This document shows positions 31,642-39,580 of a stretch of 49,173 nt of DNA, in pieces. The notes below the pieces were generated by a model that searched no databases, was not told the origin of the DNA, and saw only the letters and a list, made by a program, of their open reading frames with translations. The stretch lies in assembly GCA_947426865.1 (NCBI GenBank), contig CANEFS010000006.1:1-49173 (forward strand), in the 5' to 3' direction. Position 1 is the first letter of the stretch, and every line of letters begins with the position of its first letter. The translations under genes were made by a program, and so were the position numbers. This DNA comes from an uncultured Coriobacteriaceae bacterium (GTDB lineage Bacteria > Actinomycetota > Coriobacteriia > Coriobacteriales > Atopobiaceae).

Positions 31642-32994
31642 ATGCCTGGCTCCAAAATTCCCAAATTCCCAGTGCGCAAGAGTCTCGAGGCTCTCGTTGC
31701 AAAGCAGGCAAAAGAGGCTGCACAAGAATCGTTCATGTACGACTTGGATTCACGCCCCGACGCCGATTCCGAGCAAGGCACGAACGGCCGTCTTTCTTGG
31801 GGCTCGCGCGGCGACGTAGGTCTTTCTCGGGAACATAACGAAGATTCTTACCTCTGTCTCCCTCCCCTTTTCGCGGTCTCGGACGGCATGGGCGGTGAGG
31901 CGGCAGGAGAGATTGCAAGCTCTATCTGCATCCAAACGCTCGCCGAAAACGCGCCCACCGAAGCAAACGCGGAGGCCTTGGGAGAGGCCATCGAAGCGGC
32001 CAACCAAGCCATCATCGAGGCGCCCGCGAAAGGCGTGGGCAAGGAGGGCATGGGCTGCACCGCCACCGCGGTTTTGATTGAAAACGACAAGATGGCCCTG
32101 GCGCATGTGGGCGATTCGCGCTGCTATTTGCTGCACAACCAATCGCTCGTGCGCCTGACGCGCGATCACTCTTTCGTCGAGACGCTCATCGAGGCCGGCC
32201 TCATCACAGCAGAAGAAGCCCGCGTCCATCCCAAGCGCTCTATCATCACGCGCGCCCTGGGCTCGGACCCCGATATGTATGCGGACAATCTCACCATCGA
32301 TGTCGAGAAGGGCGAGCGCGTTTTGCTTTGCTCGGATGGTCTCTCGTCGATGATTACCGATGCCGAGATTGAAAAAATCTGTCAGGAAAACAAAACGCCG
32401 CAGCTCTGTGCCGACGCGTTGGTGTCGGCAGCCCTTGCGGCGGGTGGCTCCGACAACGTGACCGTCATCGTCGTCGACATCTTAAACGACGGCAAAGAAG
32501 CCATCATGAAAAAGAAGCGCCATAAGGCCATCATGAGTTGGATGGCCGGCGTCATCTCGCTTCTCGTGGCGCTCTGTTGTGTGGGCGTTTGGTTCGTTGA
32601 CGAGTCCTACTATTTAGCTCCCGACGAAGAGAACCCGCAAAAAGTTGCGATTTACCAGGGATTCAACAGCTCTTTTTTGGGCATTCCCCTCTCACACATT
32701 ACCGAGAAAACCGAAGTTAATATCAGCGACCTTACCCCCGACACGCAAAAGCAGCTGCAAAGCGGCGTCCTTGCCATGAGCGAGGCCGACGCACAGGAAA
32801 AAGTTCAACGCTACCTTTCCTACATTGCAACCAAAAAGGCTGAAGCGCACGAAGGTGCTTCTGACGCAACCGCTACGACCAACACCGATGCGGCAGCCAT
32901 GTCGGGCACAGATACGAATGTCGCACAACTTATCGATCCAAACAATCCTTCCACGATGGCTTCCGTTTCTGATGGCGAAGGGGGTGGACAGTGA
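31642..32994 (+). CDS. pstP: PP2C-type serine/threonine phosphatase (PstP-like)
   Basis: Dephosphorylates proteins phosphorylated by the operon's kinases. The 450 residues show the metal-binding PP2C motifs: RGDVGLSREHNEDSY, FAVSDGMGGEAAGE, ALAHVGDSRCYLL, LTRDHS, VLLCSDGLSSMI and GGSDNVTVIVVD. One membrane helix (about 298-320) follows. An external C-terminal part of 130 residues includes a Thr/Ala/Asp-rich tail. A hydrophilic lead of about 50 residues precedes the catalytic domain. The ATG at 31642 lacks a strong site. The stop overlaps the next gene's GTG by 4 nt (GTGA), indicating coupling. Confidence 0.93.
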   Translation: MPGSKIPKFPVRKSLEALVAKQAKEAAQESFMYDLDSRPDADSEQGTNGRLSWGSRGDVGLSREHNEDSYLCLPPLFAVSDGMGGEAAGEIASSICIQTLAENAPTEANAEALGEAIEAANQAIIEAPAKGVGKEGMGCTATAVLIENDKMALAHVGDSRCYLLHNQSLVRLTRDHSFVETLIEAGLITAEEARVHPKRSIITRALGSDPDMYADNLTIDVEKGERVLLCSDGLSSMITDAEIEKICQENKTPQLCADALVSAALAAGGSDNVTVIVVDILNDGKEAIMKKKRHKAIMSWMAGVISLLVALCCVGVWFVDESYYLAPDEENPQKVAIYQGFNSSFLGIPLSHITEKTEVNISDLTPDTQKQLQSGVLAMSEADAQEKVQRYLSYIATKKAEAHEGASDATATTNTDAAAMSGTDTNVAQLIDPNNPSTMASVSDGEGGGQ

Positions 32995-35831
32995 ATCCCT
33001 ATCTCTCCCTCACCCAAGAACATGGCCTCAGCCGGCGAAACACCGAGCTGCTCCTTTTAATAGGCGCATCGTTCCCGGTTCTTTTGGTTTACGCCACCTA
33101 CGTTTTAGCCGGCGGCAACACGCTTAGTATCGAAACACTTTTGGTACCGCTCTTCTTAATGTTGGCCTTTACCATCGCCCACATCTTCGTGCGCTTTTTA
33201 GCACCCGAGGCAGACCCGTGCCTCTTGCCAATCGTCTACGTTTTAAGCGGCATCGGCATAACTTTTGTCACGCGCCTCAAGCCGGATTTAGCGATGAACC
33301 AGGTCATTTGGCTCTTCCTCGCCATCGCGATGATGATTGTGACGTTGGCTTGCGTGCGAAACATCGACCGGCTCGCTCAATACAAATACACGATAGGCGC
33401 TGTTGGCGTCGTCCTCATTTTGCTGCCGATGATTTTCGGCGAAACGATTGGTGGCTCGAAGTTATGGCTTCAGCTCGGTCCCATCTCCTTCCAACCAGGT
33501 GAATTGGCCAAGATCTGCATCGTTGTTTTTCTTGGCGCCTATTTGGCCGAGAATCGCGAACTTCTTTCAGCCTCATCGAAAAAGATTGGCCCCTTCACCG
33601 TTCCTTCCTTCAAGATGCTTCTGCCCGTCTTTATCATGTGGGGCTTGTCGCTTTTGATTGTTATTTTCGAGTCGGACTTAGGCAGCGCCCTTCTGTTCTT
33701 TACCATCTTCGTTATCATGCTCTACGTCTGCACGGGACGCGTGAGCTACGTGCTTATTTCGCTGGTGCTTCTCGCAATCGGCGCGGTGGGCTGCTTCTTG
33801 CTTTTCCGCCACGTGCGCGTGCGCGTCGACATCTGGCTTGACCCGTTTAAGGATGCGCAAGGCGGCGGCCTGCAGATTGTCCAGTCCCTCTACTCTTTAG
33901 CCGACGGAGGTTTTACCGGAACCGGTTTGGGAAAAGGGTTGCCCACCCTCATCCCCGTCGTTGAATCCGACTTTATCTTTAGCGCTATCGGAGAAGAGAT
34001 GGGACTTTTGGGCGGTTCGGCGGTGCTTTTGCTCTTCATGCTTTTTGCGGTGCGGGGCTTTACGACAGCGGCGCGCGCGAAGTCTGATATTGCTGCCTTT
34101 ACCGCCGTCGGTCTTACGACCTCCATCTGCTTCCAAGCATTTTTGATTGTCGCCGGCGTCACGAAGTTCCTGCCTCTTACCGGTGTGACGCTACCCTTTA
34201 TGAGTCAGGGAGGATCTTCTCTTCTCGCAAGCTTTATCGTTGTCGGCCTTCTCCTTCGCTGCGGAGATCAAGGAACCGGACACTCCGCTTTGCTGCAAGG
34301 TGGCGGCGTAAAAGAAGAATCGATAAAGATGAAACGTCCCGCAGCGCGCGTTACCTACGGCATGAAAACGCCAGAGTCTGGTGTGTTGGGACGCGTTGCT
34401 CTATCGCGGCGCATCACCGTCCTCGTTACGTTTTTTGCAATTTTGTTCGCTGCATTGATTGCAAACATTACCTATATTCAAGTGATTGAAGCGCCTGATC
34501 TGCGCGCGATGGCCAACAACAACCACACTATTCTTCGCACCTCAAAAATTGAGCGCGGCTCCATCATCACAAGCGACGACGTTGTCCTCGCAGAATCGGT
34601 GAAACAAGAGAATGGAACGTATAAACGTGTGTACCCGCAAGGGTCTCTCGCCGCCCATACCGTGGGCTACCTTTCTTCCACCTATGGAGCAGCAGGGCTT
34701 GAGGCTTCTCTGAACGATCAGCTCTCTGGACACGAAAACTATTCGAATTGGATTTCAACCTTCCGCTCGCTAGCCGGCATTCAACAACCCGGCAACACAG
34801 TGCAACTGACGCTGAACTCCAAAATTCAAAAGGCGTGCGAAGATGCTTTGAAAGGATATAAGGGCGCGGTCGTTGTTATGGATCCTTCCACCGGGGCGGT
34901 TCTTGGCAAAGCATCGCTGCCAACTTTCAACGCGGACAACCTGAGCTCGGTCATGAGCGACTCGTCCTCGAGCGCCCTTCTTGACAGAACGACGCAGGTC
35001 CTCTATGCGCCAGGCTCGACCTTTAAGGTCGTCACTCTTTCAAGCGCGCTTGATTCTGGTAAGGCAACGCTGGACTCGACATATAACGCGCCCGCTACTA
35101 TGAAGATTGGAAACGCTGACGTCATCAACGACAACAAGCGCGATTACGGAACGATAAATTTGAAACGCGCGCTGGCCGTCTCTGCCAATACCGTCTTTGG
35201 CCAGCTGGCTGTCGATATTGGCTCGCACACTTTAGTGAAATACTCCAAGGCTTTTGGCTACGAGCAACAGATTGGACTCGACTTCAATGTCACGCCTTCT
35301 CTCATGCCGAATCCTTCCGAGATGACCGAGTGGGAAACGGCCTGGGCAGGATGCGGGCAACCCGTTGGAGAGCATGAGTCCGACCCCGGTCCACAATCAA
35401 CCGTTATGCAAAACGCTGTTATCGCGGCCACCATTGCGAACAAGGGTGTTGCGATGAAACCGTATATCGTGCAGCAGATCTTGGACCCCGATGGAGCCGT
35501 CGTCACCAAGACGCGCGCCGTCTCCTTGGGTCAAGTAGTTTCGCAAGACACCGCGCAGAGCGTGGCCGAGGCCATGCTGGCCGTTACCACAAGCGGCACC
35601 GGAACTGCTGCTGCCAATGGTACAGGCGTCAAAGTCGCCGGCAAAACCGGAACGGCAGAGACAGGCACCGACATCAACTCTCTCTTTATTGGATACGCGC
35701 CCTACGACAATCCAAAGATTGCTATCTCGGTTTGTTTGGAGGGAACACCCGATAAGGACGTAGAAGGAAGCGCAGCTAGAATCGCAGGCAAGATTATCGC
35801 TGCCTGCCTGAGCGTGCTGAACAGCAAGTAG
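32991..35831 (+). CDS. RodA/FtsW glycosyltransferase fused to a class B penicillin-binding protein
   Basis: A single 946-residue chain that combines peptidoglycan polymerase and transpeptidase. Residues 1-430 are a SEDS protein with about 11-12 membrane helices. It shows the LQIVQSLYSLADGGFTGTGLGKG loop, FIFSAIGEEMGLLGG and LPLTGVTLPFMSQGGSS. A linker of about 45 residues leads to a new membrane anchor (about 470-495) and then the PBP with STFK (nucleophile Ser676), SAN (731-733) and KTG (885-887). The start is GTG with GGGGGTGG upstream, overlapping pstP. In mycobacteria these are two adjacent genes, rodA and pbpA. Here no stop or frameshift separates them, so the fusion is genuine in this sequence. 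Confidence 0.95.
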   Translation: MNPYLSLTQEHGLSRRNTELLLLIGASFPVLLVYATYVLAGGNTLSIETLLVPLFLMLAFTIAHIFVRFLAPEADPCLLPIVYVLSGIGITFVTRLKPDLAMNQVIWLFLAIAMMIVTLACVRNIDRLAQYKYTIGAVGVVLILLPMIFGETIGGSKLWLQLGPISFQPGELAKICIVVFLGAYLAENRELLSASSKKIGPFTVPSFKMLLPVFIMWGLSLLIVIFESDLGSALLFFTIFVIMLYVCTGRVSYVLISLVLLAIGAVGCFLLFRHVRVRVDIWLDPFKDAQGGGLQIVQSLYSLADGGFTGTGLGKGLPTLIPVVESDFIFSAIGEEMGLLGGSAVLLLFMLFAVRGFTTAARAKSDIAAFTAVGLTTSICFQAFLIVAGVTKFLPLTGVTLPFMSQGGSSLLASFIVVGLLLRCGDQGTGHSALLQGGGVKEESIKMKRPAARVTYGMKTPESGVLGRVALSRRITVLVTFFAILFAALIANITYIQVIEAPDLRAMANNNHTILRTSKIERGSIITSDDVVLAESVKQENGTYKRVYPQGSLAAHTVGYLSSTYGAAGLEASLNDQLSGHENYSNWISTFRSLAGIQQPGNTVQLTLNSKIQKACEDALKGYKGAVVVMDPSTGAVLGKASLPTFNADNLSSVMSDSSSSALLDRTTQVLYAPGSTFKVVTLSSALDSGKATLDSTYNAPATMKIGNADVINDNKRDYGTINLKRALAVSANTVFGQLAVDIGSHTLVKYSKAFGYEQQIGLDFNVTPSLMPNPSEMTEWETAWAGCGQPVGEHESDPGPQSTVMQNAVIAATIANKGVAMKPYIVQQILDPDGAVVTKTRAVSLGQVVSQDTAQSVAEAMLAVTTSGTGTAAANGTGVKVAGKTGTAETGTDINSLFIGYAPYDNPKIAISVCLEGTPDKDVEGSAARIAGKIIAACLSVLNSK

Positions 35832-35903: not shown

Positions 35904-37919
35904 ATGGCGGACAAAATTCTAGGGGGGCGCTACCGCGTTCAAGACAAAATTGGCATTGGAGGTATGGCAACTGTCTTCCGTGGATCCGATGAGGTCCTCG
36001 GACGTACAGTTGCCATCAAGATGATGCTTCCTCAATACGCGACGGACTCTTCGTTTGCGGCGCGCTTCAAACAGGAAGCGCAAGCTGCTGCGGCCCTTCA
36101 GAGCCCCTACATCGTTGGTATTTTCGATTGGGGTAAAGCCGACGATTCCTACTACATCGTTATGGAGTATCTGCGCGGAACCGATTTGAAGAGCGGCATT
36201 AGAAAGCACGGCGCTCTCGATAGCAGAAAAGTTGCGCAAATTGGAACGCAAATTTGCTCGGCTTTAACCGTTGCTCATCAACACGATATCATCCACCGAG
36301 ACATCAAACCGCAAAACATCATGGTCCAGCCGGACGGCAACATCAAGGTGATGGACTTTGGTATCGCGCGTGCTAAAAATAGCCATCTCACCACCGACAA
36401 TTCGGTTCTTGGCACCGCCCATTACGTTTCTCCCGAGCAAACCCAGGGCAAAGACCTGGGCCCCACTTCCGACATCTATTCCCTTGGCGTCGTTATGTAT
36501 GAAGCAGCCACTGGAAAAGTCCCCTTCGACGGAGAGGATGCTATCAGCGTTGCTTTGAAGCAAGTGAACGAGCAACCCGTCCCGCCTTCGAAGTTGAATC
36601 CAAAAATTGACCCGGCCTTCGAAGCCATCATTTTGAAGTGCATGGCTAAAAATCCTGCTGACCGTTTCCAAACGGCGCAAGAGCTGCGTGATGCCCTTAC
36701 TGATTTTCTCGCAGGACGCTCCGTGAACATTCCTGGATCCACGATGCTCCTGCCTGCGGCGCAAGCGCAAAAGATGAACGGTGCCAATCCGGGCTCGACC
36801 GCACAAATGGCTGCTATTCAAAGAGGTACGACCGGGAAGCTCGACGCCGACACCTACGGCGGAAGCGGAAACAACAAGAAGGGCTGGACAAAGAAGAAGA
36901 TTGCCGCAGCCGTTATTGGCGGCGTGGCTGTTCTCGCGGCTATTATCGGCCTCGTCGTTGTCTTTACGGGAACACGTGCGGTCATTAACGTCGTGACAAT
37001 GAGCAAAGACGACGCCATTGAGGCCATTCAAAATACTGACTATTTCCAGGTAGGCGATATTAAAGAATCGTATTCCGACGATGTCGAGCAGGACAACGTC
37101 ATCAGTCAAGACCCAAACGCAGGATCGCTTTGCTGGAAAGGAACCCGCATTAACTTGGAGGTCTCGAAGGGCAAAGCGCCCGGTGACCCAGTAACCGTTC
37201 CCAACTTGCAAAATATGACAAGCGACGATGCTATGAAGGCGCTTGATGCTGTTGGCTTGAAGGGAAAGATTGGCGACCCGGTTGCCGATGACAATGTCGA
37301 GCAAGGCAAAGTTGCTAAGCAAGATCCCGTGGCGGGCGCGACTGCCGCAAAAGGTGATACCGTCACCATTCAGCTCTCGAGCGGCAAAGGCAACGCCACC
37401 GTTCCCGACGTTCGCGGCTACACGCAATCGAGTGCTACGAAGACGCTTGAGGATGCGGGCTTTGCCGTGGCCATTGGCACCTCAAAGTATTCCGACTCCG
37501 TTCCAGAGGGCTGTGTCATCAGTTACGATCCAACGGGGTCTCAGCCAAAAGGCACAAAGATTACGCTCACCATTTCTAAGGGAACCGAAACCATTGACGT
37601 TCCTAACGTCACGGGAAAGACCGAATCCGACGCTCGTTCCATCTTGCAGAATGCGGGTTTCTCGGTATCGGTAACGAGAACCCCAAGCTCGACCGTGGAC
37701 ACCGGATACGTCATTTCTTACTCGCCGACAGGGCGCCAAGCCTTGGGCACAACCATTACGATTACCGTGAGCACAGGGAAAGAAAAGCAGGTGAAGAAAA
37801 CGGGAAGCTTTGCCGATGCGCTCAGCTCGCAGGCGAAAACGTTTGCGGTGAATGCCACGTTTGCCGATGGGAAAAACTGGTGCGCCTGGGCGGATTCGAA
37901 CCGTCGACACCCACTTTAG
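35904..37919 (+). CDS. pknB: PASTA-domain serine/threonine kinase (PknB)
   Basis: A cell-wall-sensing receptor kinase of 671 residues. The cytoplasmic kinase has GIGGMATV, Lys39 (VAIK), HRDIKPQN (131-138), DFG (151-153) and SPE. A juxtamembrane linker, one membrane helix (333-356) and four PASTA domains (about 357-640) follow, which bind muropeptide or lipid II. AAGGAG precedes the ATG. After the fourth PASTA repeat the frame runs through about 45 unrelated residues and ends (NRRHPL) inside an antisense tRNA-Arg gene. The last 14 codons are thus complementary to the tRNA. The original stop may have been lost, or the tail may simply tolerate extension. Confidence 0.95.
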   Translation: MADKILGGRYRVQDKIGIGGMATVFRGSDEVLGRTVAIKMMLPQYATDSSFAARFKQEAQAAAALQSPYIVGIFDWGKADDSYYIVMEYLRGTDLKSGIRKHGALDSRKVAQIGTQICSALTVAHQHDIIHRDIKPQNIMVQPDGNIKVMDFGIARAKNSHLTTDNSVLGTAHYVSPEQTQGKDLGPTSDIYSLGVVMYEAATGKVPFDGEDAISVALKQVNEQPVPPSKLNPKIDPAFEAIILKCMAKNPADRFQTAQELRDALTDFLAGRSVNIPGSTMLLPAAQAQKMNGANPGSTAQMAAIQRGTTGKLDADTYGGSGNNKKGWTKKKIAAAVIGGVAVLAAIIGLVVVFTGTRAVINVVTMSKDDAIEAIQNTDYFQVGDIKESYSDDVEQDNVISQDPNAGSLCWKGTRINLEVSKGKAPGDPVTVPNLQNMTSDDAMKALDAVGLKGKIGDPVADDNVEQGKVAKQDPVAGATAAKGDTVTIQLSSGKGNATVPDVRGYTQSSATKTLEDAGFAVAIGTSKYSDSVPEGCVISYDPTGSQPKGTKITLTISKGTETIDVPNVTGKTESDARSILQNAGFSVSVTRTPSSTVDTGYVISYSPTGRQALGTTITITVSTGKEKQVKKTGSFADALSSQAKTFAVNATFADGKNWCAWADSNRRHPL

Positions 37920-37953
37920 GAGAGTGGTGCTCTATCCCCTGAGCTACAGGCGC
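37878..37953 (-). tRNA. tRNA-Arg (CCT), antisense to the 3' end of pknB
   Basis: GCGCCTG pairs with CAGGCGC. The anticodon CCT lies between CCACT and AGTGG, the T loop is TTCGAAT, the discriminator is A and CCA is encoded. 76 nt. The 3' 42 nt overlap pknB coding sequence on the other strand, including its TAG stop. It reads AGG codons. Confidence 0.95.
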
Positions 37954-38004
37954 ATTGATGTCAAAAGACCAAATTGACGGATGCGTCGGGTAGAAAAACT
38001 ACCT

Positions 38005-38667
38005 CTACTGAGTGTGCGTTTTATCCTCTGTTGAAGTGGCTGTCTCGTTTGAGGCGGCCGCTTTTTTTGCCGCTTTTTTCTCTTCTTTCGCGGCGTAGTC
38101 AGACTGAATCAGCTGGCCAAGTTTTTTGTCCGTCATCGAGGCCGCTTCAGCTTCTGCTTTGCGGCGCATCGGGCGAACTTTAATCCAGTCGAAAGCGAAG
38201 CCACCAATAATAAAAGCGTACGCGGCAATTAAGGCAACGGTCGAGACGAGTCCCATCGTTTCACTCGGGTTGTTTGGGTTAGCGGGAAAGACGAACATGC
38301 ATGCCCAACTCACCACCGTCATCGCAAGGCCTACGCCAAGCAGCCCCCACCAGATTTTGCGATAGGTTGAATAGCGCGGATCTTGCTTCAAAAGAACGTT
38401 CACCGCATAGACTTCTTGATCGCGGCGCTCGCGTTCTTGACGCTTCGCTTCTTTCTGTTGAGCGTTGCCAAAGAGGCCCCCTTTGAGGAGTCCGCCTCCG
38501 CCACCGTTCGAAGCACCTTTCGCACCGCCTTTGGCCGAAACCGTATGGACCGTTGTTCCGGCCTTCCGAGAGAGCTTTGCCGAGGTCGCGCCCTTTCGGG
38601 TCATACCCTTCGCATCTCCCGTTATTTTCTTCTGCGTACGTGCGTTTTTATTACTGCGTTGACTCAT
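38005..38667 (-). CDS. Basic two-helix membrane protein of unknown function
   Basis: A 220-residue protein I do not recognise by name. Residues 1-70 are strongly basic and Gly/Ser-rich (RKGATSAKLSRKAGT, GGGGGLLKGGLFG), followed by a charged helix (KEAKRQERERRDQEVYAV). Two membrane helices (about 108-130 and 142-162) and an Ala/Lys/Glu tail follow. Such a layout is seen in actinobacterial integral membrane proteins of unknown role encoded near cell-wall or cytochrome genes, but no motif fixes a function. AAGGAG precedes the ATG. It follows tRNA-Arg on the minus strand, facing pknB. Confidence 0.8.
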   Translation of the reverse strand: MSQRSNKNARTQKKITGDAKGMTRKGATSAKLSRKAGTTVHTVSAKGGAKGASNGGGGGLLKGGLFGNAQQKEAKRQERERRDQEVYAVNVLLKQDPRYSTYRKIWWGLLGVGLAMTVVSWACMFVFPANPNNPSETMGLVSTVALIAAYAFIIGGFAFDWIKVRPMRRKAEAEAASMTDKKLGQLIQSDYAAKEEKKAAKKAAASNETATSTEDKTHTQ

Positions 38668-38782: not shown

Positions 38783-39580
38783 TTAGAGTGAAGGTTGTTT
38801 TTCCAGTGGCAAGCTAATGGCAAAGGCCGCCCCCCCTGTTTTTGTCCGAGAAACCCTTATTGTTCCGCTCGCTTCTTCCACTTTAATTTTTACATAGGTG
38901 AGACCGAGGCCTTTTCCTGTCGGGGCAACGCCGACCGCCTCCTTTGCGCGAAAACCTTCTTCGAAAATATGTGCGACATCTTTTTTTGCTAAACCCGGTC
39001 CGCTATCTTCAATCGTGAAAATGATATGAGGAGTTGCAGCGGTTTTTGAATTTTTAGTTGTCCTGAGGATGAGAGAAACCTTTCCCCGCGAAGGAACGTA
39101 GCGCGCTTCATTTGAAAGAAGATTTTCAAAAATGCGTTCGAGCGCTTTTTTGTCGAGTGCGATGACGCCGGCTTCATCTTCTTTCTTTTGGGTGTCATTT
39201 TCTTGAATCGCAAAACAAAACGAAATTTCCTTCTTTATAAAAAGTGGTTCCATGCGCGCGCAAACGGAGCGCACAATTTCTGCCACACTTTTAACGTCAA
39301 GAAAATATTTAGACCTTTCAGACTTTTCAGACTTTTGCGGCGAAGGAAAAACGCCTTCTGTTTCTGCATGGGCTTCTTCACTTAAGTCATCAAAGGGCGC
39401 TACCGTAAGTTCGGCAAGGAGTTTCCGAAAGGTTTTGAGCTCGTCGGAAAGTAGCGAGATTTTCTCGGAATTGAGGGGGATGACCTGGTCTTTCATGGCC
39501 TCAAGCGTGACTTGCATAACATGCAAGGACCCTCGAGCATCGTGCAGAAGTTGCCTCTTCTTGTGGGCCGGCTGATTAAT
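38783..39580 (-). CDS. Soluble histidine kinase with a probable AUU start codon
   Basis: The sensor partner of the adjacent response regulator: 265 residues, no membrane helix. The phospho-acceptor region RQLLHDARGSLHVM places His13 in the dimerisation helix. The N box ERIFENLLSNEARY, G1 DSGPGLAKKD and G2 GKGLGLTYVK form a complete HATPase domain. The first conventional start (TTG at 39526) falls after the phospho-acceptor His, and no ATG, GTG or TTG occurs between the preceding stop in this frame and that His. ATT at 39580-39578 overlaps the regulator stop (ATTAA) and has AAGGAAGAGG six nucleotides upstream, so it is taken as the start. The signal sensed is unknown. Confidence 0.8.
   Translation of the reverse strand: MNQPAHKKRQLLHDARGSLHVMQVTLEAMKDQVIPLNSEKISLLSDELKTFRKLLAELTVAPFDDLSEEAHAETEGVFPSPQKSEKSERSKYFLDVKSVAEIVRSVCARMEPLFIKKEISFCFAIQENDTQKKEDEAGVIALDKKALERIFENLLSNEARYVPSRGKVSLILRTTKNSKTAATPHIIFTIEDSGPGLAKKDVAHIFEEGFRAKEAVGVAPTGKGLGLTYVKIKVEEASGTIRVSRTKTGGAAFAISLPLEKQPSL

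Follow-up and report, generated by a model that had tools for sequence, protein, structure and literature searches.

The window, 49,173 nt of DNA, makes up one entire contig of a draft genome (29 contigs, 1.04 Mb) that is 94% complete. It contains pknB, whose product has both a kinase domain (Pfam PF00069, Pkinase; 1.8e-55) and PASTA repeats (4.6e-54, in four stretches) and is thus a PASTA-type Ser/Thr kinase (PknB/Stk). Matches to pknB at E ≤ 1e-60 were present in 138 of the 140 genomes of the family that were searched, its own genome counted in. The pknB search counted 35 genera, and the genome studied here is the sole member of its genus in the set searched.

We found that pknB ends inside a tRNA-Arg(CCT) gene on the opposite strand (Table 1), so that the 3' ends of two facing genes overlap. 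An earlier note on this DNA had described such a convergent overlap, and ORF analysis, ARAGORN and Rfam confirm it. Exactly 42 nt are shared; read in the frame of pknB, they give WCAWADSNRRHPL followed by TAG. The length of 42 nt was correct in that note; the count of 14 codons plus a stop was not, as there are 13 sense codons and the TAG. The tRNA gene scores as intact (Rfam, 62.5 bits; cut-off, 29) and, judged by its sequence, appears to have no visible damage from the overlap. It is the only whole-gene match in its own genome among the matches listed.

Upstream of the tRNA is a conserved ORF that had no Pfam match at E ≤ 0.001. Its relatives adjoin pknB, with the tRNA between them in several loci. 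Since the ORF lies beside pknB in 16 of the 51 loci searched by tblastn (many loci end short of it or lack it), the junction is not an odd join, and a contig chimera at this point is not supported. By eye, the ORF ends approximately 14 residues later than its relatives in the loci L240-L242. Beyond it is a histidine kinase gene (38783-39526, minus strand; 247 aa, TTG start). Compared by eye with the 507- and 510-aa frames of L046 and L073, this kinase is without the N-terminal half (membrane, HAMP and sensor part) and has HDARGSL where those relatives have HELRTPL; its open frame extends into a response regulator gene. The later end of the conserved ORF and the shortened histidine kinase both fit a shrinking neighbourhood. 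On the other side of pknB, a single 946-aa ORF (32991-35831, plus strand) carries FtsW/RodA-type and transpeptidase (PBP) domains (Pfam). It was matched as one tblastn stretch in 44 of the 45 matched loci of L034-L081 and was split in L049; from these matches the fusion looks class-wide.

Table 1. Features at the junction of pknB and tRNA-Arg(CCT)
Feature	Position	Strand	Basis or remark
pknB, Ser/Thr kinase with four PASTA domains, 671 aa	35904-37919	+	ORF, Pfam, family matches
pknB tail, fourth PASTA domain to tRNA, 31 codons	37785-37877	+	no homologue found
110 nt past the tRNA 3' end; hairpin terminator in 42/62 relatives, none here	37768-37877	-	hairpin scan
tRNA-Arg(CCT), CCA encoded	37878-37953	-	ARAGORN, Rfam
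pknB/tRNA-Arg(CCT) overlap, last 13 codons of pknB and stop	37878-37919	+	antisense to the 3' part of the tRNA
Conserved ORF, family without assignment	38005-38667	-	upstream of the tRNA; synteny marker for the junction
Terminator-like hairpin, 13 pairs (7 G-C) then TTTTT	38034-38063	+	beyond the tRNA, inside the 3' end of the conserved ORF

The spacer between the two genes in relatives

We paired 137 pknB places (own genome left out) with the tRNA-Arg(CCT)-like places among the matches listed. About twenty listed tRNA places, second or weak ones, were left out, including the only listed ones of G147, G151, G152 and G161, all of which were off the contig of pknB. Among the matches listed, both genes were found in 127 genomes and on one contig in 104 of these; at any distance, 94 of the 104 pairs were convergent and 10 co-directional. 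The two genes lay within 1500 nt of each other in 65 pairs (63 convergent; 2 co-directional, G002 and G009), again among the matches listed. Measurements were made on 62 of the 63 convergent pairs, with anticodon CCT assigned by ARAGORN; G162, in which the tRNA is cut by a contig end, was left out, and pairs more than 1500 nt apart were outside the measured set.

None of the 62 convergent relatives has the overlap. The gap from the pknB stop to the tRNA ranged from 64 to 1277 nt (median, 240.5). The earlier note had named as counter-evidence relatives whose pknB stops earlier by a simple base difference. This holds in part: all 62, none of them of the same genus, do stop without overlap, but they do so by whole spacers rather than by a simple base difference. 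In the window, 93 nt separate the end of the fourth PASTA domain from the tRNA. The corresponding distance, counted from where the pknB match ends, was at least 127 nt in the 63 convergent relatives with the two genes up to 1500 nt apart; match ends differ between genomes. The genome itself is also small (1.04 Mb, compared to at least 1.4 Mb for other family genomes that are at least 90% complete).

The spacer of the relatives typically contains a hairpin and T-run that mostly begins approximately 10 nt past the tRNA. Using a strict rule (at least 7 pairs and a T-run, within 110 nt), we found a hairpin in the direction of the tRNA in 42/62 relatives, compared to 3/186 shuffles, and in the direction of pknB in 12/62 relatives, compared to 1/186 shuffles. 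With a looser rule the numbers were 52/62 and 32/62, respectively. The three nearest relatives by pknB score (L240, L241 and L242) have a hairpin past the tRNA, by eye. In contrast, under the strict rule the window had no hairpin with a T-run within 600 nt in the direction of the tRNA, and none in the direction of pknB in the 110 nt past the tRNA 3' end. Across the 33 tRNA genes read in this genome, the strict rule finds a terminator at only 6, so its absence at tRNA-Arg(CCT) by itself says little about function.

tRNA 3' ends are common integration sites, and the spacer might have been removed by decay of a mobile element integrated at this one. The spacers of the two nearest relatives by pknB score are 2.3 and 4.5 kb long, which would suit an inserted element. 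However, we recognized no recombinase by eye in those two spacers, and the ORFs in them resemble, as we take them by eye, an ATPase of the ABC type and a secreted protein with repeats. The T-arm pattern of the tRNA (14 bases, at most 1 mismatch) is present at one place in the genome, without a second copy; a duplicated attachment site is therefore not supported. We consider such an element very improbable as the cause.

The pairing of pknB with this tRNA is also found outside the family. In some other Coriobacteriia (Gordonibacter L059, Enteroscipio L062, L063, L076 and L078), tRNA-Arg(CCT) is on the same strand as pknB, 4-129 nt past its stop; one such junction is at 6888-6891 of L063. These cases come from the named loci L034-L081; one of the place searches behind the comparison kept the best 80 of at least 589 confirmed places. 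To judge by this arrangement, a shared transcript is possible in those genomes. Because of these cases, the pknB/tRNA neighbourhood seems to be older than the family, with variable orientation.

The pknB tail and its stop codon

The tail past the fourth PASTA domain measures approximately 44 residues (628-671), in agreement with the roughly 45 residues of the earlier note, and the pknB matches of many relatives end near residue 625-630. The protein is not unusually long (671 aa, compared to 605-673 aa in the 29 loci L005-L033), so the overlap is not accompanied by a 3' end extended beyond that of relatives. Between 2 and 99 residues follow the matched part in relatives; most of these tails, by eye, have a high content of Gly, Ser, Thr, Asn and Asp. 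Since pknB has not been lengthened, the spacer is what changed. The tail of G090 is not of the usual Gly/Ser/Thr kind, and G074, G090 and G069 each have one stop codon inside the pknB match.

The earlier note had proposed that the tail is former non-coding sequence. This is not shown: the tail has a CDS-like codon score and leans, weakly, to coding, and no homologue was found. The codon score was 0.283, and the long ORFs of the window had a mean of 0.198 (sd 0.128; 399 windows). It was exceeded by none of 311 out-of-frame stop-free windows and reached by none of 1000 mononucleotide shuffles; 3.7% of 644 overlapping stop-free intergenic windows reached it, and 22% did so on synonymous choice alone. 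These statistics lean weakly to coding and are not proof. The 31 codons that separate the fourth PASTA domain from the tRNA matched nothing at E ≤ 0.1 in the family's 139 other genomes, a search in which a 31-residue query has little power, and they had no second place in their own genome at E ≤ 10. With no match in either search, at that low power, the notion that the tail is a copied piece of another gene is not supported. An old coding tail, an old spacer or a mixture of the two are possible origins. Inside the tail is a 10-bp direct repeat, TTTGCCGATG, at 37809-37818 and 37860-37869 (51 bp apart), which may be a deletion scar or due to chance.

The open frame of the tail might also indicate that one base was misassembled or miscalled close to where the fourth PASTA domain ends, with the true pknB stopping earlier, for example in the +1 frame, which has stops at 37768, 37792 and 37849. 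The window is one contig of a draft in 29 contigs, and 3'-end extension by a frameshift or lost stop is described, in the passages of Palleja et al. 2008 (PMC2478687) drawn on here, as a known source of false convergent overlaps; there, 124 of 178 convergent overlaps of >60 bp were assigned to the class extended at the 3' end by a frameshift or lost stop. However, the codon score is CDS-like in the given frame, and one wrong base would neither shorten the spacer nor remove the hairpin of the relatives. An error of this kind is thus unlikely, though less so than the mobile element.

The tRNA itself accounts for the position of the stop. Reading the tRNA and the overlap together, the TAG of pknB is the complement of C35-U36-A37, at the anticodon. 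We followed the same frame across the tRNA-Arg(CCT) genes in the fetched family stretches (63 genes, that of G002 included) and found TAG at exactly 42 nt in 50/63; the remaining 13/63 have a stop earlier than 42 nt. The stop position is therefore set by the tRNA and requires no selection on pknB, and the length of 42 nt needs no special cause. The chance that the frame stays open over the 31 codons preceding the tRNA is approximately 0.27 from base composition alone.

More generally, when a spacer is lost, a tRNA gene can furnish the stop codon for a facing protein gene: where C35 or U35 precedes U36-A37 in the tRNA, the opposite strand reads TAG or TAA at the anticodon. Of the 33 distinct tRNA genes read in this genome (from 30 loci, with 44 places listed), those for Arg CCT, Arg TCT, Lys CTT and Lys TTT have such a stop 42 nt into the frame beginning at the tRNA end. 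Besides pknB, two open frames of at least 100 aa enter the 3' ends of these 33 tRNA genes, one into tRNA-Phe (L147) and one into tRNA-Gly TCC (L163), both of them candidate genes only. The frame in L147 (969-1562) is long, extends 65 nt into the antisense tRNA-Phe(GAA) and ends in VAEPGIEPGTRGFSVLCSTN.

Probable transcription across the tRNA gene

The sequence suggests that pknB transcription is likely to read through the tRNA gene. As the strict rule identified a hairpin in the direction of pknB in only 12/62 relatives, read-through of pknB may not be new. Transcription of pknB may end at the terminator-like hairpin beyond the tRNA (Table 1), which had a local fold of -22.8 kcal/mol in a scan of 37920-38200. 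Of 200 shuffles, 1% had a stem as long as this one and 9.5% had some candidate of at least 7 pairs; candidates in the direction of pknB beyond the tRNA were found in 4/62 relatives (7-9 pairs). The hairpin is a single post hoc match, within the coding sequence of the opposite ORF. A separate terminator scan listed none in 37500-38300, probably because the T-run is partly paired in the stem. If the hairpin works, pknB mRNA would carry the complement of the whole tRNA.

The pknB and tRNA transcripts may be somewhat more likely to meet than the earlier note knew, because the hairpin of the relatives (42/62) is missing here. That note had raised a coupling of kinase expression to a rare tRNA, for which we found no support. 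AGG is a rare codon, used 19 times among 12,232 codons of the window's remaining long ORFs, and it does not occur in pknB. The genome also has a tRNA-Arg(TCT) (L162), for which AGG should likewise be readable through wobble pairing. The sequence therefore gives no grounds for linking the kinase to tRNA-Arg(CCT). Taken as a whole, the interpretation in that note is partly supported.

A selected regulatory overlap, with pknB mRNA serving as an antisense RNA against tRNA-Arg(CCT) or with transcription of the tRNA repressing pknB, would fit the 42 nt of complementarity, the lack of a terminator found between the genes, and the possible termination of pknB beyond the tRNA. Conservation of the overlap, as expected for cis-antisense regulation, was found in 0/62 relatives, none of which is from the same genus. 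The absence of AGG from pknB and the presence of tRNA-Arg(TCT) also argue against regulation, and a tRNA, being folded and abundant, is a poor antisense target. Such selection is very unlikely. Hypothetical effects of the overlap, if any, would likely arise through transcription collisions or antisense to the precursor tRNA. There is a faint chance, only slightly better than that of selected regulation, that a pknB mRNA that has lost the separating hairpin and extends to 38034-38063 carries the 76-nt complement of tRNA-Arg(CCT), and that in this lineage transcription of the kinase gene and the transcription or processing of the tRNA disturb each other. The overlap is a small natural case for asking if convergent transcription across a tRNA is tolerated.

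Origin of the overlap and known systems

Our results are most consistent with compaction of a small genome, and we think it highly probable that the pknB/tRNA overlap is a convergent gene overlap made in this way. The absence of overlap from all 62 relatives, their gaps of 64-1277 nt and the hairpin present in 42 of them and missing here count for compaction, as do the small genome and the distance of 93 nt compared to at least 127 nt. The lean of the tail to coding counts against it, as a tail derived wholly from old spacer would not predict this. Across the family, pknB and tRNA-Arg(CCT) often stand face to face with a spacer between them, in most cases with a terminator-like hairpin approximately 10 nt past the tRNA. 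Spacer and hairpin were lost here, most likely by deletion, which would have set the open pknB frame against the tRNA. Since the comparison set is without same-genus relatives, the deletion is neither placed nor dated. By the sequence, translation enters the complement of the tRNA and halts at the TAG from C35-U36-A37; the 13 terminal residues, dictated by the tRNA, probably have no function of their own. Transcription of pknB likely crosses the tRNA gene, with the hairpin on the far side as its possible end, and the consequence of the overlap is probably near neutral. The overlap is ordinary in kind and is not evidence for a new regulatory system.

Typical antisense-tRNA peptides are among the spurious-protein entries of AntiFam. 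As in the AntiFam entries described for proteins overlapping tRNA genes (PMC9710616), the end of PknB is translated antisense tRNA. In contrast to those entries, as far as that description goes, only the 13 terminal residues are tRNA-derived, and everything before them is a kinase with good support, so this is no spurious ORF; the kinase and PASTA domains, with matches in 138/140 family genomes, show that the ORF as a whole is not a tRNA artefact. A search of open-access literature with narrow terms found, among the titles listed, none on a bacterial protein gene ending in an antisense tRNA, which is not proof of absence.

Bidirectional intrinsic terminators are described between convergent genes (PMC5381666), and most of the relatives measured have a hairpin between the two genes, whereas the window has none there. 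Two-way action is supported for a minority of the relatives at most, as only 12/62 have a terminator in the direction of pknB by the strict rule.

A close comparison is with convergent overlaps made by a lost stop or spacer (Palleja et al. 2008, PMC2478687). In the part of that study compared here, the neighbour is a protein gene, and here it is a tRNA gene; overlaps of >60 bp were covered, and this one is 42 nt. In addition, the pknB product at 671 aa falls inside the span of its family relatives (605-673 aa, L005-L033). Facing genes, an overlap of 3' ends and a next stop inside the neighbour are common to both.
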